Assembly (NCBI RefSeq): GCF_032854445.1
Contig: NC_088299.1
Span: forward strand, 16,979,608-17,043,607
DNA from: Liolophura sinensis
Taxonomy: Eukaryota; Mollusca; Polyplacophora; Chitonida; Chitonidae
Reading direction: 5' to 3'
Length of the DNA stretch: 64,000 nt
Every line of letters begins with the position of its first letter. The stretch's first letter is position 1. This document shows, one piece after another, positions 6,550 to 61,632 of the stretch. The notes under the pieces are model-generated. The model was not told the DNA's origin and searched no databases. It saw nothing but the letters and a program-made list of their open reading frames with translations. The position numbers were made by a program, and so were the translations under genes.

Positions 6550-9500
6550 AGAGAAGAGAGAATCAGAATTAAAACCTTATTAGGAATCTTGAGGAGGAGA
6601 TGACTGAACCATCTGAGAGCAGCTATACGTGTCTGCATGGAGAAGTGATCAAGGAGTTTGCTGAGTACACGGATCACGGACTCAACCTCCAGCTGAATGA
6701 ATATGCTGCAAGAGACAAACAATGATAATACATGTGAACTACTGACTCAACCTCCTGCTGAATGAATATGCTGCAAGAGACAAACAATGATAATACATGT
6801 GAACTACTGACTCAACCTCCAGCTGGATAAATACGCTGGAAAGATAAATCAAAGTGCCACAGAATGAGAACAGGACACTATTTAATGACTATCTCAAGCT
6901 GACAGACAGTGCCTACAGACATTAAACATGAATTGCAGCATAATGCATGTACAATGACGTACAACATAACAAGAATTACTGTCAGTAACCCATCCCAAAT
7001 CAACCTCAATATAAATCTGTCACAAATCAGCCTCAATATAAACCTCAAACAAATCAGTCTCAATGTAAACCTGTCAGAAATCAGCCTCAATATAAACCTC
7101 AAACAAATCAGTCTCAATATAAATCTGTCACAAATCAGCCTCAATATAAACCTCAAACAAATCAGTCTCAATGTAAACCTGTCAGAAATCAGCCTCAATA
7201 TAAACCTGTCAGAAATCAGTCTCAATATAAACCTATCAGAAATCAGCCTTAATATAAGCCTCTCACAAATCAGTCTCAAAATAAACCTCTCACAAATCAT
7301 CCTCAATATAAACCTCTCACAAATCAGTCTCAAAATAAACCTATCACAAATCAGCCTTGATATAAACCTGTCACAGGTCAGCCTCAATATAAACCTCTCA
7401 CAAATCAGTCTCAAAATAAACCTATATCAAATCACCCTTGATATAAACCTGTCACAAGTCAGCCTCAATATAAACCTCAAACAAATCAGTCTCAATGTAA
7501 ACCCGTCACAAATCAGCCTCAATATAAACCTGTCACAAATCAGCCTCAATATAAACCTATCAGAAATCAGCCTCAATATAAACCTCTCACAAATCAGTCT
7601 CAAAATAAACCTCTCACAAATCAGCCTCAATATAAACCTCTCACAAATCAGTCTCAAAATAAACCTATCACAAATCAGCCTTGATATAACCTGTCACAGG
7701 TCAGCCTCAATATAAACCTCTCACAATTCAGCCTCAATACAAACCTATCACAAATCACCCTAGATATAAACCTGTCACAAGTCAGCCTCAATATAAACCT
7801 CACACAAATCAGCCTCACTATAAACCTCTCACAAATCAGCCTCAATATAAACCTCTCACAAATCAGCCTAAATGTAAACCTATCCCAAATCAGTCCCAAT
7901 ATAAACCTATCACAAACCAGCCTCAATATAATCCTCTCTCAAATCAGCCTCAATATAAACCTCACAAATCTGCATCATTATAAACATCTCAAAAATCTGT
8001 CTCAGTAAACATGTAAACCTCTCACAAATCAGCCTTGATATAAACCTCTTCCAAATCTGCTTCAATATAAACCTCTCTCAAATCTACCTCAATATAAACC
8101 CGTCACAAATCAGCTTCCATATAATCCAGTAAAAATCCCAGAACACTCTCATGCCTGGAAAGTACAAGATAAAACTTTGCCAAGAAGTTTTTGTATAAGT
8201 TTGTACATTTTCTTAAGTAAATAAATTAGTCACCAAAAACATTTGTATTTTTTTTTTTTAATTTTATAGCCATTTCAAAAAACTGATGTGAATTTGGGAC
8301 ATTTGCGAGTGCCAGCAGAAGTCCTTCATCACAAATCTGCCACCATACTAACACATACTCTGAGGAATCTGCCTGCTCTGTGGATTTTGTGCTGCCTTCT
8401 TTCTTGCCCTCCACTACACTGTTTGTCTGATTGTCCACCTGATCCGTGGATGGACCATTTCTCTTGGTCACCTGTTCACTTGTCTGCTCATTCTTCTTCG
8501 TCAGCTGTTCAGCCACTGTCTCATTCCCACCTTTCTTCGCACTTTGGTCCAGAGGTTCCCCTTTTTTCTTGCTCTGTTGATCCATTGGGGAGTTTTTGCG
8601 CTGAGGCTCTGGAGTGGGCCTATCATCTTCCGAGCTGATCAGTTTCTGCAGACTCAGGTTAACAGACTTGGCAGATTCCCGAACACTAGAAATACGTTAA
8701 GGCAATGTAGGCATACATGGAAACCTCTTGTGATAAATATAAATGACACACATTTGCATGTAGAAACCTTATAATTAAATTCTGTTTTATTTTACTTCAA
8801 ACAAGTCAAAATATCCTGCATGCCTCATGAGTTTTTAACTAACTAACCTCTCTGTTGTACACACTGTGGTTATTAAGGGTGATCAGCTCGTATGTATATG
8901 TATGTATGTATTTAGACATGCTTAGGGTTTAATGTCACACTTGAAATTTTTTCAGTCATATGATGATGAAAAGTCATTAGGTGTATTACATATATTGTGT
9001 TTTCTTGTGGTTTGCGAGTCCATGCTACAAAGTTCTGCCGATATTGAAGTATCATGTCAAAGACACCAGACATGACGCCTGACCCAGTCACATTATACTG
9101 ACAACAGGCCAACCAGTCATGTTTTCTTGCTATGACACATCAGTGCTGAGCTTCGATTGAGACAGCAACAAGTACCAGTTTCGAAGTCCTTGGTATCACC
9201 TGACCTGGGTTTGATCTCTGGTCTCCTGACTTCAAGGCGTGTACGGGTATGCATAAATTGGTGTTATTCACATAGAACTTCACCTGACATTCTACCAACC
9301 TGGTACAGCAAGATGATTTGTGGGTGATAGGATAATAATCCTATCAGAATATAATAGGATCCTTGCAGCAGGATTGTCTTTCAGAAATTAATCAACCATG
9401 GTGACTTGTTGTCAGGTTAAGGATACTTTCTCCTATTCTCCTCTTCATACGCCAAACATGGCAGAATTGCACTAATTATTCCCGACGCAAATGGCAGCAT

Positions 9501-12500: not shown

Positions 12501-15500
12501 TGAAAATGCGCAGAAAGTCAGGAAGGAGGGACGATATGCATTCGACATAAATAACACTCATTTCTAGAGCTTTGACAAATTGGTATGCCCCCGGAATTAG
12601 AAGGTACTGTTGAATTTGCACTACATACATATCAACCTAGAAGGCACTCCAACAAAGAACGTTCCACAAATCTATAAATCTATAAATTTTCAGACTAAAA
12701 CCAAAAAGTTAAAAGTACACAGGAATAAAAAGCATTTCCCGCCTGTACACAAAATTTACCAGACCGGTCCTTAGTCCAAGGCCAGCCTGTGCACAAAATT
12801 TACCAGATCGGTCCTTAGTCCAAGGCCAGTCTGTGTACAAAATTTACCAGACTGGTTCTTAGTCCAAGGCAGCCTGTGCACAAAATTTACCAGAATGGTT
12901 CTTAGTCCAAGGCCAGCCTGTGCACAAAATTTACCAGAATGGTTCTTAGTCCAAGGCCAGTCTGTACACAAAATTTACCAGACTGGTTCTTAGTCCAAGG
13001 CCAGCCTGTGCACAAAATTTACCAGATCGGTCCTTAGTCCAAGGCCAGTCTGTGTACAAAATTTACCAGACTGGTTCTTAGTCCAAGGCCAGTCTGTGCA
13101 CAAAATTTACCAGAATGGTTCTTAGTCCAAGGCCAGCCTGTGCACAAAATTTACCAGACTGGTTCTTAGTCCAAGGCCAGCTCTGTGCACAAAATTTACC
13201 AGTATGGTTCTTAGTCCAAGGCCAGCCTGTGCACAAAATTTACCAGAATGGTTCTTAGTCCAAGGCCAGCCTGTGCACAAAATTTACCAGAATGGTTCTT
13301 AGTCCAAGGCCAGCCTGTGCACAAAATTTACCAGACTGGTTCTTAGTCCAAGGCCAGCCTGTGCACAAAATTTACCAGAATGGTTCTTAGTCCAAGGCCA
13401 GCCTGTGCACAAAATTTACCAGAATGGTTCTTAGTCCAAGGCCAGCCTGTGCACAAAATTTACCAGACTGGTTCTTAGTCCAAGGCCAGCCTGTGCACAA
13501 AATTTACCAGGCTGGTTCTTAGTCCAAGGCCAGTCTGTGCACAAAATTTACCAGACTGGTTCTTAGTCCAAGGCCAGCCTGTGCACAAAATTTACCAGAA
13601 TGGTTCTTAGTCCAAGGCCCAAATTGTTTTTTAATCTCTCACAAAGATTTTCTGTAAGGCACACGAACAAACCCAAACAACACAAAAAAAACCAAAAAAA
13701 ACACACACACCAGCAAAAAGAGACATTCCTTAGTGGAGGTAACTTACATTTTTCTAATTTCTTGGTTCGTGTCTCCCAAAATTTGAAACAGACCATCTAA
13801 AATCTCTGGCAGTAGGATCAGCATGTTGATATCAGGAACAGCATCTAACACAGAAATCTGGAAGTTATTAACACACATTAAATACTTTTATGTTGTTATT
13901 ACGCCTCATTCAAGAGCCACAACTCATACTTATCATTTTTATATCTCTCTACAGCATACAAAAATGATAACTGAAACTCCGGGATGATTCGGTAAATATC
14001 AGGTAACGTTGTGGATTTCATGCTTCCTAAGCTTAGGGTGTGATGTTTTCTTTCAACATTATTTCTGTCATTTCATCACGTCCAGTGTAGCAGGCCAGTC
14101 CCAGTTTCTCTGGGTCCTCAGTTGGTCAATGGCACTCATGCACCTTATCTTACAAGTATAACAGTGATACAAGTCTTTGTCATCTAAGTTTGAAGAATGT
14201 ATTACCCACTCAACGTCACACCGGAGTATAAAAACATGTCTAACTAACTTTAAATGATTTTGTCCTAAAATAGGTCTCTATGAAATATGTATGATTTTTA
14301 TTGAAGAATCCAAGCTGGGTTGGGTAATTCTTTGTTATAATCTGGAAAGCAACTATCCAGGTATGTCTTTAAACCCGAAAAACCAAAGCTTTAGCATCAG
14401 TATTAAAATCACATGTTAACAATCATGTGCAGTGCATGTTTATTGGCTCGACTGTAACCCACATCCCTTTACCCCATTACTTGTCCTCTTGATCATACAC
14501 AACTTACCCAAGAAACAACAAACTGTCTGGCAAATGGGTTTTTACTGTAAACTCTCTCTCTGAGCAGGGGGATGAATGTCACCAAGTCAAATGAAGTCTC
14601 TGTAACTATATCCTACAAAAAAAGTGTACAGATCTTTTGTAAACAGAAACACTAAATAGATAATCTAGATACCATTGATACAGTAGGCACAAACTACAAT
14701 TTAGCAATCATTCAAAACTTGTTTGTTGGGCATAAGAGACACTTTGAGAAGAAACACAGCAGACTGATAGTCAAACAAATTTGTCTTGCTAATGGAGAAG
14801 ATAGGGTAGATACCTAACACTGAAAAAAAAAATAAAAGTGTGAGAGTAGGGAGATTTTTTTCTTTTTTAAGGGTTGGTCAGAATATACATTTTTAATGAT
14901 GGCCAGTTTCTGAATATATGTTCGCATTAGAGCAAGTTTTTAAATCTTGTATGTTTAATGTTCATTTTTCTTTAAACCATGTTTAAACCACCATGTTTTT
15001 GGTTATTTCAATTCAAAAGAATCTGATTCCTTGCATGCACTGCACGGAAATTTCTTGGTCAACAATTCAGCGAGCATACACGTATATGTATGTAGGAAGC
15101 TGAATCATAAAGCTTCAGCATCAAAAGGATTCAGAATTTTAAATACCTAAAATACATCCAGCAGAAAGAAAAACAATGTGAGTCTATGGACTATTTCCAG
15201 AAGAAGAGTTTCTTCTCTTGAGGGAAGTCATAACCTTGCCAAAACTACATCAGAAAGTATATATGAGAAGTCATACCTTCATTAATCTGTCTAATAATTC
15301 TGTTCCATTCTTCACATTTTGATCAGGGTCTGTTGCCAACTGCAAAGGACCAAAATCATAGCTTTGATACATCCTAAATAAATTCAAATTTAACACAAAA
15401 ATCTGCTTAACAAATGCATTCATCACATCTCTGAACCCTATTCTCCACTGCAAGCAACACAGTTTTATTGCTCACATATATCTACAGATTGAATTGATGG

Positions 15501-25300: not shown

Positions 25301-28300
25301 ATTGTGCTCTGCATTAGCATATTTGATTTGTCTGAAGGCCTATAAATTTACCTGTTTACCATTTTACATATCACATAACATGAGCATGTCTGACCTTAAC
25401 ACTGCATGAAGCACATCTATACAGGTGAGGGAAACCTCACAGAATTGAGAAAAAACAAAGGAGCTTTCTCAGCTAGGTCAGAGAGCTGGGTTTAGAATAT
25501 GAGACATTTTACACATCAGGGCATGAGTCTTACATCAGATCATGATCACGGATGTAACCTGATGATTATGGTCTTACCTGATGTAGGCTGAATGTACCTG
25601 CTTGTTTGAACTTTCTTGGAATATTTTAAATTTAGTTGAGCCGAGTGCAGAACCTTATTATGTGTTTCAAATTTCAAAGCTTCTGTTTTGGCATGCACAT
25701 GATACACCTAGTTACAGGTACATGTACAGGTACTCACATCACTGAGAACTCATTTTTTGTTTTTTTCCTCTCATTGTAGTCCTTATCAATGATCTGTCTG
25801 ATCAGTCTGACCACATCTGGATCTGGGAAATATGAGAGCTACCTTCTCTTACCCTTGAGCTGGCATTTTCGTATCATGGTTTTTGTGTTGGTATTGACCA
25901 TTCTGACAAGCCTGGTGATGTTAGTGACCTATACGACAGGCCTTATCACCACGTTCCCACTCAATTGGCCTCTACTGGTATGTATATAAGTTAATTTGTC
26001 TGATGATTGGATTTTACAGGTTGAGCAATCTGGTTTCACACTTAGAACGGAGGTGAAAAATTCCCAGGAATGACATTAAACACTCAGAATCAGAATAAAT
26101 TACCTTTCAAGCAAAGTTTGTTCAGTGTCTCACCAATCTCCATCTGTAATTTATCTCATGCACATACAACTATGCTATTAAATATCTAAACATATAAGTT
26201 ACACGATCAGAAAGTCTGTTTGAGGTAGTTATAGTGTATGTTATAGTGTGTGTGTTATGGTGTGTGTTATGGAGTGTGTTATAGTGTATGTTATAGTATG
26301 TGTGTGTTAGTGCATGTGTTATAGTGTGTGTTATAATGCATGTTATAGTGTGTGTTATAGAGTGTGTGTTATGGTGTGTGTTACAGTGTGTGTGATAATG
26401 TGTGTTATGGTGTGTGTGATAGTGTGTTACAGTGTGTGTGTTATAGTGTGTGTGTTTTACAGTGTGCGTTATAGTGTGTTACAGTGTGTGTTATAGTGTG
26501 TGTTATGGTGTGTGTTATAGTGTGTGTGTTTTACAGTGTGTTATAGTGTGTGTTACAGTGTGTGTGTTTTACAGTGTGTGTGTGTTATAGTGTGTGTTAC
26601 AGTGTGTGTTATGGTGTGTGTTTTAGTTTGTGTGTTTTGGTGTGTTTTATAGTGTGTGTTGTGGTGTGTGTTACAGTGTGTTATAGTGTGTGTGTTTTAG
26701 TGTGTGTTATAGTGTGCGTTGTGTATGTTATGGTGTGTGTTACACTGTGTTATAGTGTGTGTTATAGTGCGTGTGTTATAGTGTGTGTTACAGTGTGTGT
26801 GTTGTAGTGTGTGTTATAGTGTGTGTTTTTGTTCCTGAATTACCCTTTATTTAGGGAATTTTATTACATGTACTCATAGGTTGTAAACAAATTTGTCTAA
26901 ACTCAGAACAGCCATATTTAGCCCACTTGCAGTTGTCAGCCTGTAACATGGGACATTACATGTATACCCATAAGAATTAAGAAAATACATGTACTTGTAT
27001 CACCCTTTGACATGTCTTTCCCTTGTTATCAAATTATCAGCGAAGGGCATTTTTATTCCCTGTACATTAATACATAAATGTTGTTCGACCTGTTATTATA
27101 TTAAATTTCTAAAGTAGGCTTTGACAAAGATAAGACTACGCTTCTCCACCTAGAACAGGAAGCCTTGAAAAGTGCTGTCTGCTTTTATCTGGCTTTTAAT
27201 TAGTTTCTAGGAAATCACAAGTTACCTCAAGAAGACTTTTGTTCATAGGCCAGTCTGTGACGTAATAGCTCATTCTGACCTAGAAACCTTATGAAGTGCA
27301 GTTATTGGGTTCCTCAGTACAGATATGTCCTCTAAGTACACAAGGCAACCAGTGGTTTCTTCTTGTCCTCATTTGGCTTTCATGTTATTGTACTCAATCT
27401 TATCTGATACATGTGCATGCATTCACCTTCCTGTATCTTGTTAAAGGACCTGGTACTGTATGGTACATTCACCTCCTTGTATCTTGTTGAAGGACCTAGT
27501 ACTGTATGGTACCTTCACCTTTTGTATCTTGTTGAAGGGCCTGGTACTGTTTGGTACATTCATCTCCTTGTATCTTGTTGAAGGACCTGGTACTGTATGG
27601 TACATTCACCTCCCTGTATCTTGTTGTAGGACCTGATACTGTATGGTACATTCACCTTCCTGTATCTTGTTGAAGGACCTGGTACTGTATGGTACATTCA
27701 CCTCCCTGTATCTTGTTGTAGGACCTTATACTGTATGGTACATTCACCTTCCTGTATCTTGTTGAAGGACCTGGTACTGTATGGTACATTCACCTCCTTG
27801 TATCTTGTTGTAGGACCTGATACTGTATGGTACATTCACCTTCCTGTATCTTATTGAAGGACCTGGTACTGTATGGTACATTCACCTTCCTGTATCTTGT
27901 TGTAGGACCTGATACTGTATGGTTCATTCACCTTCCTGTATCTTGTTGTAGGACCTGATACTGTATGGTACATTCACCTTCCTGTATCTTGTTGAACGAC
28001 CTGGTACTGTATGGTACATTCACCTTCCTGTATCTTGTTGTAGGACCTGATACTGTATGGTACATTCACCTTCCTGTGTCTTGTTGTAGGACCTGATACT
28101 GTATGGCACAGTCACCTTCCTGTATCTTGTTGAAGGACCTAGTACTGTATGGTACATTCACCTCCTTGTATCTTGTTGAAGGACCTGGTACTGTATGGTA
28201 CATTCACCTCCTTGTATCTTGTTGTAGGACCTGGTACTGTATGGTACATTCACTTTCCTGTATCTGGTAGGCTCCTCTCTTGTGGCCAGTGCTTTTGACT

Positions 28301-29041
28301 TCTACCAGAAGATGGGAACAGACGTTCCAGAACAGACAATTAGGCGTCTAGTGTTATGTGTGGTAAGGAAATGTGGTAGTACCCGTATCAGTATAATGGC
28401 TCTGGCAGGGCGGCGGGAAAGTCATCTCAGTGAAGCAGCACTAGATAAAAGAGCGGTGGAAATCCGTCCTGCAATAAGGAGGCACATTGCATGCATTCTA
28501 AGGATTTCTTCATCGTCATATGACTGTTAAGTACGACGTTGAATCCCAAGCACTCATTCACTCACCCCCTAACTTATTGGTATTCCTGAGTCATATAGTT
28601 CACAGTTCACTGATTCATGTACAGTAGTTTTCTCTGGTAAATGTTATCCACCACCCCAAAAGTGACTTCTGTTGTAAAACAACGATGTTCATAAAATAGT
28701 ACTATTGGTGCTGAAACAATTCTACCTTCCAAACAAACCTCAAAACACCTTTCCACCATCAGTTAATTATAAACAACCAGAATCAGGAAGAATTACCAGA
28801 TTTTCTTATGAATGAAAGTTTAGGTCATGTATGGTACTACAAGTAGTAGTTTACTCACCTGTATGTTACTAGCTGTTCTCACCTGAGGATGTATAACCTG
28901 TGCTACATGTTTCAGGTGCTGGGTTACATGGCCATGTTCCTTTACCTGGCTACTGCTGTCCATGGTTACAAGAAGTGGAGGTGGCTGGAGCTGCATCAGT
29001 TCAGGCGACAGAGGCTAATGGAGGCAGATGAGATAGCGTAA
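18908..29041 (+). CDS. MARVEL-domain four-pass membrane protein (CMTM/MAL-like), 4 exons
   Basis: Exons are 18908-19399, 25780-25977, 28228-28362 and 28916-29041. All join in phase 0, giving 316 residues. Residues 1-147 are polar and probably disordered, with an acidic stretch DDDSRQDSADDEEP. From NNRYLRSCPGIFRVLQV onward there are four hydrophobic segments, at roughly 155-175, 195-215, 231-253 and 271-293. These are followed by a basic cytoplasmic tail (KKWRW, then RRQRLMEADEIA). Four helices, a short first loop and the CPGIFRVLQ start fit the MARVEL fold of CMTM, MAL and plasmolipin proteins, which act in membrane trafficking and apposition. The exact subfamily is not resolved. The acceptor of exon 3 is embedded in a 46-bp minisatellite. 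Confidence 0.88.
19825..20500. repeat. Diverged ~370-bp tandem duplication
   Basis: Two consecutive segments share the ordered blocks CTTGAGAACTTTGAATG, GCTTGCCAC, GAATAAA, TGGAACTG and CATAAAATGTA, and a final run like TATAAAAATATTTTTA. The copies are about 370 bp apart, with many substitutions and gaps. Confidence 0.7.
23158..23400 (-). mobile_element. SINE family A, near full length
   Basis: Reverse-oriented with a (TTTA)n tail at its left. It includes CAAGAATATTTCACTTATAC, GGGGGAAACCCATGACC and the TTGAACTCACAGCGACC B-box complement. The tRNA-like head fades after 23395. Confidence 0.85.
25780..25977 (+). CDS. MARVEL gene exon 2 (TM1 end, TM2)
   Basis: This 66-codon exon has a pyrimidine-rich TTGTAG acceptor and a CTG|GTATGT donor. 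It encodes SLSMICLISL (rest of TM1), a loop, and WHFRIMVFVLVLTILTSLVM (TM2). It ends LNWPLL before TM3. Confidence 0.9.
25978..28227 (+). other. MARVEL gene intron 2
   Basis: Contains the GTGT-rich array (26225-26830) and the 46-bp exon-edge array (27440-28227). About 26840-27430 holds no recognised feature. Confidence 0.75.
26225..26830. repeat. GT-rich minisatellite (GTGTGTGTTATAGT and variants)
   Basis: About 600 bp of 12-16-bp units alternating GTGTGTGTTA with TAGT, CAGT, TGGT or TTTACAGT. The long alternating purine-pyrimidine runs favour Z-DNA. Confidence 0.92.
27440..28268. repeat. 46-bp array derived from the exon 3 splice acceptor
   Basis: About 18 units. Each contains TATCTTGTTGTAG or TATCTTGTTGAAG followed by GACCTGGTACTGTATGGTAC and ATTCACCTCC. 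The last unit is the real acceptor and first ~40 bases of MARVEL exon 3 (from 28228). Units differ by about 0-4 substitutions. Confidence 0.95.
28228..28362 (+). CDS. MARVEL gene exon 3 (TM3)
   Basis: This 45-codon exon begins DLVLYGTFTFLYLVGSSLVA (TM3). It continues FDFYQKMGTDVPEQ and RRLVLCV into TM4. The donor is GTG|GTAAGG. Its first ~40 bases and its splice acceptor are the unit of the array immediately upstream. Confidence 0.9.
28385..28560 (+). mobile_element. SINE family B, 5'-truncated
   Basis: Starts within the body (TATAATGGCTCTGGCAGGGC). It reads through CAGTGAAGCAGCACTAGATA and ends with CATATGACTG...GTACGACGTTGAA and a CACTCATTCACTCAC tail. It begins about 25 bp after the exon 3 donor. 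Confidence 0.85.
28620..28810 (+). repeat. Dispersed repeat family R1, member 1
   Basis: Shares CCAAACAAACCTCAAAACAC and surrounding order with the inverse of 40640-40800. Weaker relatives lie near 50930-51110 and 57990-58090. No ends could be defined. Confidence 0.4.
28916..29041 (+). CDS. MARVEL gene exon 4 (TM4, C-terminus, stop)
   Basis: This terminal exon has a GTTTCAG acceptor. It encodes VLGYMAMFLYLATAVHGY (TM4), then KKWRWLELHQFRRQRLMEAD, and stops at 29039-29041. The basic/aromatic run after TM4 suits a cytosolic juxtamembrane tail. Confidence 0.9.
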   Translation: MLGYMAMFLYLATAVHGYKKWRWLELHQFRRQRLMEADEIA

Positions 29042-36545: not shown

Positions 36546-36716
36546 ATGTATAAAAGCCTGGAAAGTCTTTTTCTGCGTGTGATATAATTGGCAAATACTC
36601 AAGCTGCCCACATTACTTAGAACGTTACAGTGCTTTTTTAGATGGCCATTTTGTCTTATACAGAAAGCTAGCTCTGATGAAAATATTTTTGGGGGGATGA
36701 TAATTTCTGCATTACC

Positions 36717-37512
36717 TGCACTGTGCATATCCTGTGTAGAGCATCACCTGCACTGTGTATATCCCGTGTAGTGCATCACCTGCACTGTGTATATCCCGTG
36801 TAGTGCACACCCTGCACTGTGTATATCCCGTGTAGTGCATCACCTGGACTGTGTATATCCTGTGTGGTGCATCAATCACCTGCACTGTGTATATTCTGTG
36901 TAGTTCATCACCTGCACTGTGTATATCCCGTGTAGTGCATCACCTGCACTGTGTATATCCCGTGTAGTGCATCACCTGCACTGTGTATATCCCGTGTAGT
37001 GACCACCTGCACTGTGTATATCCCGTGTAGTGCATCACCTGGACTGTGTATATCCTGTGTGGTGCATCAATCACCTGCACTGTGTATATCCTGTGTAGTG
37101 CATCAACTGCACGGTGTATATCCCGTGTAGTGCATCACCTGCACTGTGTATATCCCGTGTAGTGCATCACCTGCACTGTGTATATTCCGTGTAGTGCATC
37201 ACCTGCACGGTGTATATCCCGTGTAGTGCATCACCTGCACTGTGTATATTCCGTGTAGTGCATCACCTGCACTGTGTATATCCCGTGTAGTGCATTACCT
37301 GCACTGTGTATATTCCGTGTAGTGCATCACCTGCACTGTGTATATCCCGTGTAGTGCATCACCTGCACTGTGTATATTCCGTGTAGTGCATCACCTGCAC
37401 TGTGTATATCCCGTGTAGTGCATCACCTGCACTGTGTATATTCCGTGTAGTGCATCACCTCCACGGTGTATATCCCGTGTAGTGCATCACCTGCACTGTG
37501 TCTATCCCTTGT
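36717..37512. repeat. 32-bp minisatellite, ~25 copies
   Basis: The unit contains TGCATCACCTGCACTGTGTA and TATCCCGTGTAG. Variants include CACGGTG, TTCCGTG and CTGGACTG, and a few units have 4-bp insertions (ATCAATCACC). Confidence 0.95.
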
Positions 37513-38140
37513 GGTGTTTGCAGACATCATATACAGTGTATGGTCTTCAGCACAAAGTTAACCCAGAATGACCCCTAATTCTCTTTGTGAGGTCAGCTTG
37601 CAAGATCAAGCCCTATCCATGGGACTCAGTCCTCCTAGGAAATACTTTCATATGCATGTGAGACTATATATATATATGTATACATTCTAGTAAAAGATAT
37701 TTGTATTCACATAGTTATGAAAGTGGCAGTTTAAGTCACTTTTAACAAATGACAGTGGTGGGATTTAACACAGATAATTGCAGATTAGCTAGGATGAAAT
37801 GAGATGCTAGATAACTAGCGGCATGTATTTAAATATTAATTAACTGAACTGAGGGGTGAATACAGTGGCTGAATAGAACAGGCCAGCTAGGCTTAATATT
37901 TCAGGACCACCCTAAAGCAAGGAGTAGGGTTATTAGTGGGTGCTGTGTGTACCTGGAGGAGGACCAGTTACTCTTGTGGAGTTACAGGTAAAGTAACCTA
38001 CATGTGAGGCTTTTGTTCTGTCGATGTCTTGTCTGGAGTCACCACGGAGACCCAGAATGCTTTGGTGAACCAGAAGTCAATCATAAACTTGTTCCTGTGA
38101 TAAGACATATTCTATGATATTCAGCTTATTAAGCTAAAGT

Positions 38141-51110: not shown

Positions 51111-51366
51111 AAGTTAGCCATGAACAAAATTTTAGGTCAAATACTATAAGCTTAATTGTAATCCTAAGTTTAATAAACAGGGTTTTTTTTGTTCTGTTTA
51201 ATTAACATAGTTGCGCAAGGACAAAGCGTATGGGTGTCATTTCCTCCTGGGTCTGTCTTATTATGTTGTGAGGCGACGTTTTGTCTGTTTTATAATAATA
51301 TTTTGTGGCCTGATACCTGTAGACCCATTCTCATTCATGCAGTAGGATTTATGTGGTTAACGTCAT

Positions 51367-52270
51367 AATTTTCCTAGTACATGTACTGATGGGTTATCAC
51401 TGGCTGTGTGGTCTAGGGTGTCACACTACAGATGATAATCCTTGATCAGTGTGGTCACATGTTATAATTTTCCTGGTACATGTGCTGGTGGGTTATCACT
51501 GACTGAGTGGTCTAAAGTGTCACACTACCGATCACAATCATAGATCAGTGTGGTCACATGTTATAATTTTCCTGGTACTTGTGCTGGTGTGTTATCTCTG
51601 GCTGAGTGGTCTAGGATGTCACACTACCGATCACAATCATAGATCAGTGTGGTCACATGTTATAATTTTCCTGGTACATGTGCTGGTGGGTTATCACTGA
51701 CTGAGTGGTCTAAGGTGTCACACTACAGATGATAATCCTTGATGAGTGAGGTCACATGTCATAATTTTCCTGGTACATGTACTGATGGGTTATCACTGAC
51801 TGAGTGGTCTAAAGTGTCACACTACAGATGATAATCCTTGATGAGTGAGGTCACATGTTATAATTTTCCTGGTACATGTACTTTTGGGTTATCACTGACT
51901 GAGTGGTCTAGGGTGTCACACTACAGATGATAATCATAGATCAGTGAGGTCACATGTTATAATTTTCCTGGTACATGTACTTTTGGGTTATCACTGGCTG
52001 TGTGGTCTAGGGTGTCACACTACAGATGACAATCATAGATCAGTGAGGTCACATGTTATAATTTTCCTGGTACATGTACTTTTGGGTTATCACTGACTGA
52101 GTGGTCTAGGGTGTCACACTACAGATGACAATCATAGATCTGTGAGGTCACATGTTATAATTTTACTGGTACTTTTGCTGGTGGGTTATCTGAGTGGTCT
52201 AGGGTGTCACACTACAGATGATAAGCTCTGATCAGTGAGGTCACATTTCATCATTTTCCAGGTACATGCA
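51367..52270. repeat. 99-bp minisatellite, ~9 copies
   Basis: Successive GTTATAATTT starts at 51461, 51560, 51659 and so on give a 99-bp period. The unit includes GGTACATGTACTTTTGGGTT, GTGTCACACTACAGATGA and ATCAGTGAGGTCACAT. Confidence 0.93.
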
Positions 52271-52544
52271 CTGGTGGGTTTTTACTGTTTAGATGTAGGG
52301 AGACCAGAGATCAAATCCAGTTTGGATTACACCAAAGACTTGTTATACTTGTTGCTGCCTGGCTTGGTGCTCAGCACTTAGAGGTTAGAGCAAGGATACA
52401 GGACTACTTGGCCTGGTGTCACTATAGTGTGGTTGTCTTAATTGTCTGGTGTCTTCGGCATGACGGAAGTACTTTGGCAAAATGTACTTGCTGTGTCACA
52501 ATAAGACACGGTAGGCTATGTGTACACACACCTACTGACTTCTC

Positions 52545-53000: not shown

Positions 53001-53065
53001 GTGGGACAAGCAGCCAGTGGCTCACCAGTCATGTCAGTGGTTTACCAGCTGATGAACCCAGGTGT

Positions 53066-55225
53066 TCTCTGTTTTACCATTTGCTATCTGTCTCTAATGG
53101 TTTTGTACTCTGACATGTTCCCCAGGTGTTTTCTGTTTTACCATTTGCTATCTGTCGCTATTGGTTTTATACTCTGACATGTTCCCCAGGTGTTTTCTGT
53201 TTTACCATTTGCTATCTGTCTCTAATGGTTTTGTACTCTGACATGTTCCCCAGGTGTTTTCTGTTTTACCATTTGCTATCTGTCGCTATTGGTTTTATAC
53301 TCTGACATGTTCCCCAGGTGTTCTGTGTTTTACCATTTGCTATCTGTCTCTAATGGTTTTATACTCTGACATGTTCCCCAGGTGTTTTCTGTTTTACCAT
53401 TTGCTATCTGTCTCTAATAGTTTTGTACTCTGACATGTTTCCCAGGTGTTTTCTGTTTTACCATTTGCTATCTGTCGCTATTGGTTTTATACTCTGACAT
53501 ATTCCCCAGGTGTTCTCTGTTTTACCATTTGCTATCTGTCGCTATTGGTTTTATACTCTGACATGTTCCCCAGGTGTTCTCTGTTTTACCATTTGCTATC
53601 TGTCTCTAATGGTTTTGTACTCTGACATGTTCCCCAGGTGTTTTCTGTTTTACCATTTGCTATCTGTCTCTAATGGTTTTGTACTCTGACATGTTCCCCA
53701 GGTGTTTTCTGTTTTACCATTTGCTATCTGTCGCTATTGGTTTTATACTCTGACATATTCCCCAGGTGTTCTCTGTTTTACCATTTGCTATCTGTCGCTA
53801 TTGGTTTTATACTCTGACATGTTCCCCAGGTGTTCTGTGTTTTACCATTTGCTATCTGTCTCTAATGGTTTTGTACTCTGACATGTTCCCCAGGTGTTTT
53901 CTGTTTTACCATTTGCTATCTGTCTCTAATAGTTTTGTACTCTGACATGTTTCCCAGGTGTTTTCTGTTTTACCATTTGCTATCTGTCGCTATTGGTTTT
54001 ATACTCTGACATATTCCCCAGGTGTTCTCTGTTTTACCATTTGCTATCTGTCGCTATTGGTTTTATACTCTGACATGTTCCCCAGGTGTTCTCTGTTTTA
54101 CCATTTGCTATCTGTCTCTAATGGTTTTGTACTCTGACATGTTCCCCAGGTGTTTTCTGTTTTACCATTTGCTATCTGTCTCTAATGGTTTTGTACTCTG
54201 ACATGTTCCCCAGGTGTTTTCTGTTTTACCATTTGCTATCTGTCGCTATTGGTTTTATACTCTGACATATTCCCCAGGTGTTCTCTGTTTTACCATTTGC
54301 TATCTGTCGCTATTGGTTTTATACTCTGACATGTTCCCCAGGTGTTTTCTGTTTTACCATTTGCTATCTGTCTCTAATGGTTTTATACTCTGACATGTTC
54401 CCCAGGTGTTTTCTGTTTTACCATTTGCTATTTGTCTCTAATGGTTTTGTACTCTGACATGTTCCCCAGGTGTTTTCTGTTTTACCATTTGCTATCTGTC
54501 GCTATTGGTTTTATACTCTGACATGTTCCCCAGGTGTTTTCTGTTTTACCATTTGCTATCTGTCTCTAATAGTTTTGTACTCTGACATGTTCCCCAGGTG
54601 TTTTCTGTTTTACCATTTGCTATCTGTCGCTATTGGTTTTATACTCTGACATATTCCCCAGGTGTTCTCTGTTTTACCATTTGCTATCTGTCGCTATTGG
54701 TTTTATACTCTGACATATTCCCCAGGTGTTCTCTGTTTTACCATTTGCTATCTGTCGCTATTGGTTTTATACTCTGACATGTTCCCCAGGTGTTTTCTGT
54801 TTTACCATTTGCTATCTGTCTCTAATGGTTTTATACTCTGACATGTTCCCCAGGTGTTTTGTGTTTTACCATTTGCTATTTGTCTCTAATGGTTTTGTAC
54901 TCTGACATGTTCCCCAGGTGTTTTCTGTTTTACCATTTGCTATCTGTCGCTATTGGTTTTATACTCTGACATGTTCCCCAGGTGTTTTCTGTTTTACCAT
55001 TTGCTATCTGTCTCTAATAGTTTTGTACTCTGACATGTTCCCCAGGTGTTTTCTGTTTTACCATTTGCTGTCTGTCACTATTGGTTTTATACTCTGACAT
55101 ATTCCCCAGGTGTTCTTTGTTTCACCATTTGCTATCTGTCGCTATTGGTTTTATACTCTGACATGTTCCCCAGGTGTTTTCTGTTTCACCATACGCTGTC
55201 TGCCTGTAATGGTTATATACTCATA
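53066..55225. repeat. 64-bp minisatellite, ~33 copies, higher-order structure
   Basis: The unit contains CCAGGTGTTTTCTGTTTTAC, CATTTGCTATCTGTC and ACTCTGACATGTTC. Variant sites (TCTAATGG/GCTATTGG, GTTCCCC/ATTCCCC, TTTTCTG/TTCTCTG) fall in a repeating order. A rare GTTTCCC variant recurs 512 bp apart (53431 and 53943), and a rare TTTGTCTC variant recurs 448 bp apart (54431 and 54879). Confidence 0.95.
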
Positions 55226-55302
55226 TATCCCACGGGTGTTTTCTGTTTCACCATCGGCTCCCTCCCCCTCACAGTTGTATACATGTACTCTTATATATCC
55301 CC

Positions 55303-55477
55303 AGACCAGCTCATGCTGCCTTCCTCTCCGGCCGTATGTGGGAAGGTCTGGCAGCAACCTGCGGATGGTCATGGGTTTCCCCCAGGCTCTGCCCGGTTTC
55401 CACCCACCATAATGCTGGCCACCGTCGTATAAGTGAAATATTCTTGAGTACGGCGTAAAACACCAATCAAAAAAAAA
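55303..55477 (+). mobile_element. SINE family A, 5'-truncated, inserted in array
   Basis: Starts CCAGCTCATGCTGCCTTCCT. It runs through GGCGTAAAACACCAATCA and ends in a pure A run. TCTTATATATCCCC on the left and TCTTATGTATCCCC on the right may be the target duplication or simply neighbouring array units. Confidence 0.9.
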
Positions 55478-55494
55478 AAAAAAAATCTTATGTA

Positions 55495-56695
55495 TCCCCC
55501 TCGGTGTTTTCCGTTTTACCATCTACTGTCTGTAATGGTTATATACACATACATGACTGTTTTACCATCCACTGTGTGTCTGCAACAGGCCTGTACTCAT
55601 ATATATCCCCCAGGTGTTTTCTGTTTTACCATCCACTGTCTGTAATGGTGATATACACTTATATGTCTGTTTTACCATCCACTGTGTCTGTAACAGGCCT
55701 GTACTGTTATTTTTATGCCCCAGGTGTTTTCTGTTTTACCATCCACTGTCTGTCTGTAACAAGCCTGTACTCTTATATATCCCCCGGGTGTTTTCTGTTC
55801 TACCATCCACTGTCTGTCTGTAACAGGCCTGTACTGTTATATCTGTCCCCCAGGTGTTTTCTGTTCTACCATCCACTGTCTGTAATGGTGATATACACTT
55901 ATATGTCTGTTTTACCATCCACTGCCTGTCTGTAACAGGCCTGTACTGTTACATATATGCCCCAGGTGTTTTCTGTTTTACCATCCACTGTCTGTCTGTA
56001 ACAGGCCTGTACTCTTATATATCCCCCAGGTGTTTCCTGTTTTACCATCCACTTTCTGTCTGTAACAGTCCTGTACTGTTATATATATATGCCCCAGGTG
56101 TTTTCTCTTTTACCATCCACTTTCTGTCTAACAGGCCTGTACTTTTATATACATGTATCCCCTAGGTTTTTGCTGTTTTACCATCCACTGTCTGTCTGTA
56201 ACAGTCTTGTACTGTTATATATATCCCCAGGTGTTTTCTGTTTTACCATTCACTGTCTGTCTGTAACAGGCCTATACTCTTATATATCCCCTGGGTGTTT
56301 TCTGTTCTACCGTCTACTGTCTGTCTGTAACAGGCCTGTACTGTTATATCTATCCCCCAGGTGTTTTCTGTTCTACCATCCACTGTCTGTAATGGTTATA
56401 TACACTTATATGTCTGTTTTACCATCCACTGTCTGTCTGTAACAGGCCTGTACTGTTATATATATGCCCCAGGTGTTTTCTGTTTTATCATCCACTGTTT
56501 TACCATCCACTACAGACTGTCTGTCTGTAACAGGCCTATACTCTTATATATTCCCCGGGTGTTTTCTGTTCTACCATCCACTGTCTGTCTGTAACAGGCC
56601 TGTACTCTTATATATCTCCCGAGTGTTTTCTGTTTTACCATCCACTTTCTGTCTATAACATGACTGTACTCTTATACATCCCCCAGGCATTGATC
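55495..56695. repeat. Array related to the 64-bp repeat, diverged and irregular
   Basis: Units share CAGGTGTTTTCTGTTTTACC with the neighbouring array. They continue as ATCCACTGTCTGTCTGTAAC and AGGCCTGTACTCTTATATAT. Lengths vary from about 60 to 120 bp, with some units missing the CAGGTGTTTT part. Confidence 0.88.
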
Positions 56696-59589: not shown

Positions 59590-61632
59590 CATAATGCCTA
59601 GCTCTGACGGACACACGCATCAATATCAGGTATGACAGTTGATGATTGGTGACGAGCTGTGGCATACTGACCAGCTCTGACGGACACGCGCATCAATATC
59701 AGGTATGACAGTTGATGATTGGTGAGGAACTGTGACCTACTGACCAGCTCTGACCTACTGACCAGCTCTGACGGACACGCGCATCAATATCAGGTATGAC
59801 AGTTGATGATTGATGATGAGCTGTGACGTGCTGACCAGCTCTGACGTACTGACCAGCTCTGACGGACACGTGCATTAATATCAGGTATGACAGTTGGTGA
59901 TTGGTGACGAGCTGTGACATACTGACCAGCTCTGACTGACACGCGCATCAATATCAGGTATGACAGTTGATGATTGGTGACGAGCTGTGACATACTGACC
60001 AGCTCTGACTGACACGCGCATCAATATCAGGTATGACAGTTGACGATTGGTGACGAGCTGTGACATACTGACCAGCTCTGACTGACACGCGCATCAATAT
60101 CAGGTATGACAGTTGACGATTGGTGACGAGCTGTGACATACTGACCAGCTCTGACGGACACGCGCATCAATATCAGGTATGACAGTTGATGATTGGTGAC
60201 GAGCTGTGACATACTGACCAGCTCTGACGGACACGCGCATCAATATCAGGTATGACAGTTGACGAATGGTGACGAGCTGTGACATACTGACCAGCTCTGA
60301 CTGACACGCGCATCAATATCAGGTATGACAGTTGACGATTGGTGACGAGCTGTGACATACTGACCAGCTCTGACGGACACGCGCATCAATATCAGGTATG
60401 ACAGTTGACGATTGGTGACGAGCTGTGACATACTGACCAGCTGTGACGGACCCACGCATCAATATCAGGCATGACAGTTGACGATTGGTGACGAGCTGTG
60501 ACATACTGACCAGCTCTGACGGACACGCGCATCAATATCAGGTATGACAGTTGACGATTGGTGACGAGCTGTGACATACTGACCAGCTCTGACGGACACG
60601 TGCATCAATATCAGGTATGACAGTTGATGATTGGTGACGAGTTGTGACCTACTGACCAGCTCTGACGGACACACGCATCAATATCAGGCATGACAGTTGG
60701 TGATTGGTGACGAGCTGTGACATACTGACCAGCTCTGACGGACACGCGCATCAATATCAGGTATGACAGTTGATGATTGGTAAGGAGCTGTGACATACTG
60801 ACCAGCTCTGACTGACACGCGCATCAATATCAGGTATGACAGTTGATGATTGGTGACGAGCTGTGACGGGCTGACCAGCTCTGACTGACACGCGCATCAA
60901 TATCAGGTATGACAGTTGGTGATTGGTGACGAGCTGTGACATACTGACCAGCTCTGATGGACACGCGCATCAGTATCAGGTATGACAGTTGACGATTGGT
61001 GATGAGCTGTGACATACTGACCAGCTCTGATGGACACGCGCATCAATATCAGGTATGACAGTTGACGATTGGTGACGAGCTGTGACATACTGACCAGCTC
61101 TGACGGACACGCGCATCAATATCAGGTATGACAGTTGACGATTGGTGACGAGCTGTGACATACTGACCAGCTCTGACTGACACGCGCATCAATATCAGGT
61201 ATGACAGTTGATGATTGGTGACGAGCTGTGACATACTGACCAGCTCTGACTGACACGCGCATCAATATCAGGCATGACAGTTGGTGATTGGTGACGAGCT
61301 GTGACATACTGACCAGCTCTGACTGACACGCGCATCAATATCAGGTATGACAGTTGATGATTGGTAAGGAGCTGTGACATACTGACCAGCTCTGACTGAC
61401 ACGCGCATCAATATCAGGGATGACAGTTGGTGATTGGTGACGAGCTGTGACATACTGACCAGCTCTGACTGACACGCGCATCAATATCAGGTATGACAGT
61501 TGATGATTGGTGACGAGCTGTGACATACTGACCAGCTCTGACGGACACGCGCATCAATATCAGGTATGACAGTTGATGATTGGTGACGAGCTGTGACATA
61601 CTGACCAGCTCTGACAGACACACGCATCAATA
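59590..61632. repeat. 73-bp minisatellite, ~28 copies
   Basis: The unit contains TCAATATCAGGTATGACAGT, GATTGGTGACGAGCTGTGAC and GACCAGCTCTGACTGACACG. Most copies keep exact 73-bp spacing. Irregular units occur near 59740-59870, with short internal duplications of the CTGACCAGCTCTGAC segment. Confidence 0.96.

Follow-up and report, generated by a model that had tools for sequence, protein, structure and literature searches.

In the window, which is the whole 64-kb stretch of chiton DNA analyzed here (the assembly was published under the name Liolophura japonica and later reassigned to L. sinensis), a 46-bp minisatellite of 18.4 copies lies across the junction between intron 2 and exon 3 of a MARVEL-domain gene (27420–28265, forward strand, like the exons and splice sites of this gene described below). 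We consider it probable that this array is a chiton minisatellite of the type known as mirages, which originated from a duplication crossing the junction and has been tolerated since one junction stays intact. The likeliest account of the array is that of a near-neutral mutational by-product.

The gene is known here from its exons 2 to 4. Exon 2 (25780–25977, 198 nt) has an open frame, is preceded by AG and followed by GTATGT, and ends at phase 0 with ...TFPLNWPLL; exon 3 (28228–28362, 135 nt) begins with DLVLYGTFTFLYLVGSS, its first 38 nt recurring in the array; and the coding part of exon 4, with its TAA, occupies 28916–29041. These three exons join into one reading frame, which matches the Pfam MARVEL family with an E-value of 6.2e-14. 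The alignment to synaptophysin is weak (E 0.023) and is ungapped across both the L|D joint of exons 2 and 3 and TM3, the nearest gap being one of two residues located four residues before the joint; this ungapped course supports position 28228 as the true start of exon 3. Judging from the frame and the alignment, exon 3 is a genuine exon. The authentic AG acceptor (28226–28227) belongs to the last unit of the array, and its position is deduced from the protein by the MARVEL frame and the synaptophysin alignment, both of which back the proposal of the first-pass annotation that the genuine acceptor is the last one in the array. Ten long open reading frames, out of 419 listed for the window, gave no Pfam match above the curated cut-off.

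TRF reported 91% matches and a score of 1384 for the array. The first-pass annotation had noticed about 18 units at 27440–28268; the array as such was confirmed, and its extent had to be moved to the borders given above. The unit consensus consists of GACCTGGTACTGTATGGTACATTCACCTTCCTGTATCT followed by TGTTG(T/A)AG, and GACCTGGTACTGTATGGTACATTCACCTTCCTGTATCT agrees with the start of exon 3 at 37 of 38 positions; that is, the 46-bp unit is composed of 38 exon-matching and about 8 non-exonic bases and crosses the exon-intron boundary. Upstream of the true exon there are 17 decoy units (27447–28227), each with a decoy junction at its start. When 16 of them were aligned, the one with a 1-base deletion being excluded, the mean identity to the first 38 bases of exon 3 was 92.8% and the mean pairwise identity among the aligned units was 92.6%; base 27 reads C throughout the 16 aligned units but T in exon 3, which, as far as a single site can tell, would be in line with units homogenised among themselves to the exclusion of the copy at the boundary. 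The focal array was found at a single place in the assembly (609,464,459 bases in 632 contigs), a count to be taken as a lower bound. No trace of an older unit was detected to the left of the array, where the flank scored 12 vs a shuffle mean of 14.7. The same intron 2 contains a 600-bp degenerate GTTATAGTGTGT array (26228–26827), whose unit differs from that of the exon-edge array.

Direct reading of the units shows how the acceptor signals are composed. Each unit has a TTCAC, a pentamer that we take to be a branch-point-like motif; its A precedes by 21 nt the G of the AG in the same unit. The pentamer is followed by CCTTCCTGTATCTTGTTG, a pyrimidine tract made of coding sequence; without its last 8 bases, the unit matches coding bases (T F T F L Y). 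The pyrimidine tract is transmembrane-helix coding sequence placed as a splice signal, and not a copied intron tract. Because TTCAC and the tract in the units are both coding sequence, the signals on which the acceptor relies today come from the exon. The unit had been described earlier as a polypyrimidine tract, an AG and about 40 coding bases; the coding edge is indeed part of the unit, whereas the tract turned out to be exon-derived. The 8 non-exonic bases would derive from the end of the old intron, and a pyrimidine-rich stretch immediately to the left of the array (27354–27400, recognized by eye) may be the original tract, left stranded there. This stretch, together with the coding origin of the present tract, is compatible with an explanation in which the array is a step to intron gain or acceptor migration, having replaced the original acceptor signals and being able to found exons or introns, and the publications on the amphioxus globin mirages (PMC3087553) and the potato RdRp gene (PMC4974935) contain models of this kind. 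We regard this explanation as rather unlikely, because the L|D joint lies within an ungapped stretch of the synaptophysin alignment and no new exon or intron was seen at the locus.

We then consider the decoy acceptors, on which a regulatory explanation of the array would depend. AG is retained in 16 of the 17 decoys, seven times as TAG and nine times as AAG, and the remaining decoy has AAC; the seven TAG decoys share TTGTTGTAG|GACCT with the authentic site, and the two decoys closest to exon 3 are AAG. Among 84 sampled acceptors of this genome, which were placed with assumed weights favouring CAG, there are 69 CAG, 13 TAG and 2 AAG. The earlier statement that every unit presents a plausible 3' splice site is weakened by the rarity of AAG in this sample, along with the nine AAG decoys and the one devoid of AG. 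When scored with the matrix used for this sample, the authentic acceptor reaches 5.03, the 8th percentile of the 84, and is surpassed by five decoys, at 27538 (7.64), 28090 (7.49), and 27906, 27952 and 28044 (5.95 each), as well as by a cryptic exonic site at 28271 (6.71), whose AG at 28269–28270 lies in the context TTTCCTGTATCTGGTAG|GCT. Since the authentic acceptor scores below five decoys and the cryptic site, sequence strength fails to explain the choice.

A premature stop is predicted for all 17 decoy positions, including the one without AG, in agreement with the first-pass annotation; 15 of the stops fall within the array and those of the nearest two decoys in exon 3, and all precede the exon 3 end at 28362. 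Its additional claim that a three-unit decoy would end at the TAG before the exon was incorrect, because an earlier TGA stops this frame first. These stops, the seven TAG decoys that carry the authentic motif and the five decoys with superior scores would be in favour of a splicing rheostat, the tuning by copy number that the first-pass annotation had envisaged, in which decoys compete, transcripts spliced to a decoy are stopped prematurely and decay, and the output depends on array length. We consider this quite improbable: premature stops are the expectation for non-coding repeats, both of the decoys nearest to exon 3 are AAG, data from the amphioxus literature suggest regular splicing of mirages, and six of ten usable decoys of a CCT chaperonin mirage described below (L060) are in frame and open. 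The last finding tells us that a stop on decoy use is usual, yet no general design rule. Furthermore, structures of this kind are already known, so that the array can be explained without a rheostat. On the preferred account of a near-neutral by-product, the last acceptor would be used and the decoys would remain unused.

To see other junction-spanning arrays of the genome, we used a sample of myosin heads and CCT chaperonins collected by Pfam family, which comprises 92 exons and a total of 151,475 bases, spread over 29 stretches that contain 47 of 81 myosin and 45 of 50 CCT matches. The splice edges of these two gene families were predicted by a script with assumed weights, and not taken from transcripts; 154 of 184 edges were examined, the other 30 being left out for a predicted site score not above 2 or a flank shorter than 280 bases. 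The 24-mer over each junction was sought in the adjacent intron, the opposite strand serving as the control. Nine of the 154 edges (95% interval of the rate, 2.7–10.8%) have a same-strand copy in the neighbouring intron at 21–24 of 24 bases, and these comprise 7 of the 77 donors and 2 of the 77 acceptors or, by family, 6 of 84 myosin and 3 of 70 CCT edges. As many as 144 edges matched at 17 bases or fewer, and in the opposite-strand control none of the 154 exceeded 17. The one edge at 19 of 24, the acceptor 1294 of L067, was set aside as a duplicated alternative exon, the same profile positions being matched just upstream.

The 151 kb sampled contain 50 tandem arrays, which cover 12.8% of the sequence, and random seeding outside exons predicts about 2.3 spanned edges among the 154, against the 9 observed (Poisson P about 6e-4). 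This null is a rough one, because edges of one gene are non-independent, unlisted exons are treated as intron and two families are a small sample. Separately, donors amount to 7 vs 1.15 expected (P about 2e-4) and acceptors to 2 vs 1.15 (P 0.3), the difference between donors and acceptors being not significant (Fisher P 0.17). L067 had been fetched partly because the array of L015 resembled a mirage and was dropped in a stricter count; without its three exons, 8 of 149 edges are spanned (6 of 74 donors and 2 of 75 acceptors) vs 2.2 expected, with P about 0.002, and an earlier subset gave 7 of 135 edges vs 1.5–1.7 expected. In that earlier subset, a control comparing edges with other introns gave 20 of 20 in one case, probably through a neighbouring exon of the same stretch, and was excluded as evidence. 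The excess over random seeding argues against arrays starting at random places. It suggests that junction-spanning arrays are frequent in the sampled genes and seemingly in this genome.

These counts also bear on two other explanations of the focal array. It might be a common intron minisatellite that just happens to lie against the exon, as could be expected when about 13% of genic sequence is in arrays and when some arrays, such as those of L017, L024 and L065, end near exons and have no exon bases in their unit (these three were left uncounted). For the focal array this is contradicted by the exon bases themselves, 37 of 38 of which equal the array consensus, and in the sample it is opposed by the number of spanned edges with or without L067, so that we judge such a coincidence to be of low probability. 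An assembly artefact might also be suspected, since repeats are difficult to assemble and the coverage is 14x. This is exceedingly improbable, because the reads are HiFi reads with a mean of 8,347 bp, about ten times the array length, the units differ among themselves, and similar arrays are present in seven other genes.

The nine arrays are located in seven genes, namely L021, L060 (two arrays), L067, L068, L059, L018 with L025 (two arrays) and L027; seven of them were inspected as sequence and an eighth partly. Behind one myosin exon, TACCTCACACAG|GT occurs in about 18 copies, and a CCT gene with a 109-bp unit has four perfect AAG|GTGAGT copies including the authentic one. According to the assumed weights, no decoy scores above the authentic donor in any of the seven donor arrays, and at least one decoy is equal to it in six of the seven; in these six the 9-base donor motif alone cannot discriminate. 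Systematic weakening of decoys at splice positions is absent in most arrays and is clear in the 31-bp donor mirage at L018 520–1075 (G000:C12:683158-686313), where position +3 is C or T in 16 of 18 decoys and the authentic donor is GTGAGT. The 66-bp donor mirage in the CCT chaperonin gene L060 (sense strand 6584–7044; G000:C8:53404100-53412600) has a different property: six of its ten usable decoy donors are predicted to insert 22 residues per unit, in frame and stop-free, so that the protein might in principle grow with copy number. For the other eight mirages, each usable decoy is predicted to lead to a stop or a frameshift. Exon 1 of L060 has arrays on both sides, which were not counted; by eye, one ends at AG and the second begins some 12 bases past the donor.

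Several other loci were inspected outside the edge count. In a kinase sample, for which the loci of 30 out of 138 matches were fetched and whose top hits consist largely of long open frames, no array was found at the edge of an open reading frame, and one short array lies inside such a frame (L047). Four haemocyanin loci and two extra MARVEL loci, presumably synaptogyrin-like, had no array with a period of 10 or more; molluscan haemocyanin gives eight matches in a row on C8, which settles the genome as that of a mollusc. A lancelet origin, which the literature on mirages had led us to expect, was therefore rejected; a GFP-family search had yielded no match, which by itself does not prove absence. 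At L022 1–1014 (G000:C3:25730892-25734107), a 121-bp unit is present in 8.4 copies, each unit having, by eye, MEDY(F/Y)RVNLLLEPSEDR as an open stretch and then a TAA that overlaps AG|GTAA, and this array is possibly a mirage of an exon missing from the match table. The window itself is very rich in minisatellites, with 27–99 bp units at 6996–8124, 12741–13619, 36708–37516, 51365–52287 and 59832–61632. Two 64-bp arrays at 53057–55254 and 55489–56687 have a unit with the acceptor-like CCCCAG|GTGTTTTCTGTTTTACCAT, and no exon beside them was recognized by eye; the stretch between them (about 55300–55490), which we take to be SINE-like, contains a run of A.

The closest known structures are amphioxus minisatellites spanning exon-intron boundaries, which were named "mirages" (PMC3087553; PMC3902484). 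The former deals with the globins BflGb6 and BflGb9 and cites Adh3 and other loci, and the latter deals with PGBD5 and cites Adh and TnC; the former also gives two haplotypes with 6 and 3 units, and states that regular splicing is suggested by Adh3 data and globin RT-PCR. The likeness consists in tandem units that span the boundary at acceptors or donors, in the cryptic AG or GT of many units and in the authentic junction beside the array. The chiton case differs in that the host is a mollusc, beyond the published cephalochordate range, in that the focal array has about 18 units and 9 of 154 sampled edges are spanned, and in that the tract of the chiton array is coding sequence. The intron gain by tandem duplication in potato RdRp (PMC4974935) resembles it through a duplication that crosses the intron-exon boundary with branch site, tract and acceptor, whereas that gene acquired one extra copy and a new intron and the chiton gene has about 18 copies with no sign of a new intron. 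Human segmental duplications contain internal tandem repeats (PMC2812944), with units of 30 bp on average repeated 4 times; these are likewise minisatellites, some of them at exon-intron boundaries, and alter gene structure; unlike the chiton array, they concern human paralogs and the elongation of exons or introns. Among the titles listed in our search of open-licence papers, no earlier mirage of a mollusc or chiton was found.

We propose the following course for the focal array. A tandem duplication would have occurred over the intron 2/exon 3 junction and included about 8 intronic and 38 coding bases; slippage or unequal exchange would then have expanded the duplicated unit, the remaining copies turning into intron. 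Duplications inside exons would be removed, unlike those crossing a junction, which leave one intact junction and so may hardly be seen by selection; the array would be tolerated because one complete junction always remains beside the exon body. The copy used would be the one nearest to the exon's other splice site, most simply via exon definition. When the authentic site is the copy nearest to the exon's other splice site, as here, exon definition is the simplest route to correct splicing. In competition experiments with duplicated sites, the intron-proximal copy tends to win. Such genes are useful because this preference would predict the wrong choice here.

A broader interpretation, to which we give somewhat less than an even chance, is that minisatellites in this genome arise preferentially at exon-intron junctions, and especially at donors, that several percent of all junctions, provided that the sample is typical, have arrays of near-identical decoy splice sites, and that it is position across the exon, and not site sequence, that guides the spliceosome in choosing one of them. 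If this is true, the chiton genome would amount to a natural experiment on how splice sites are chosen, extending over thousands of genes. In the papers considered here, mirages are described from a handful of amphioxus genes, and the mollusc cases show that the phenomenon is not lancelet-specific. With genes that have identical or near-identical competing splice sites, the selection rule of the spliceosome would become testable in bulk, as would the notion of new introns being seeded by duplications of this kind.
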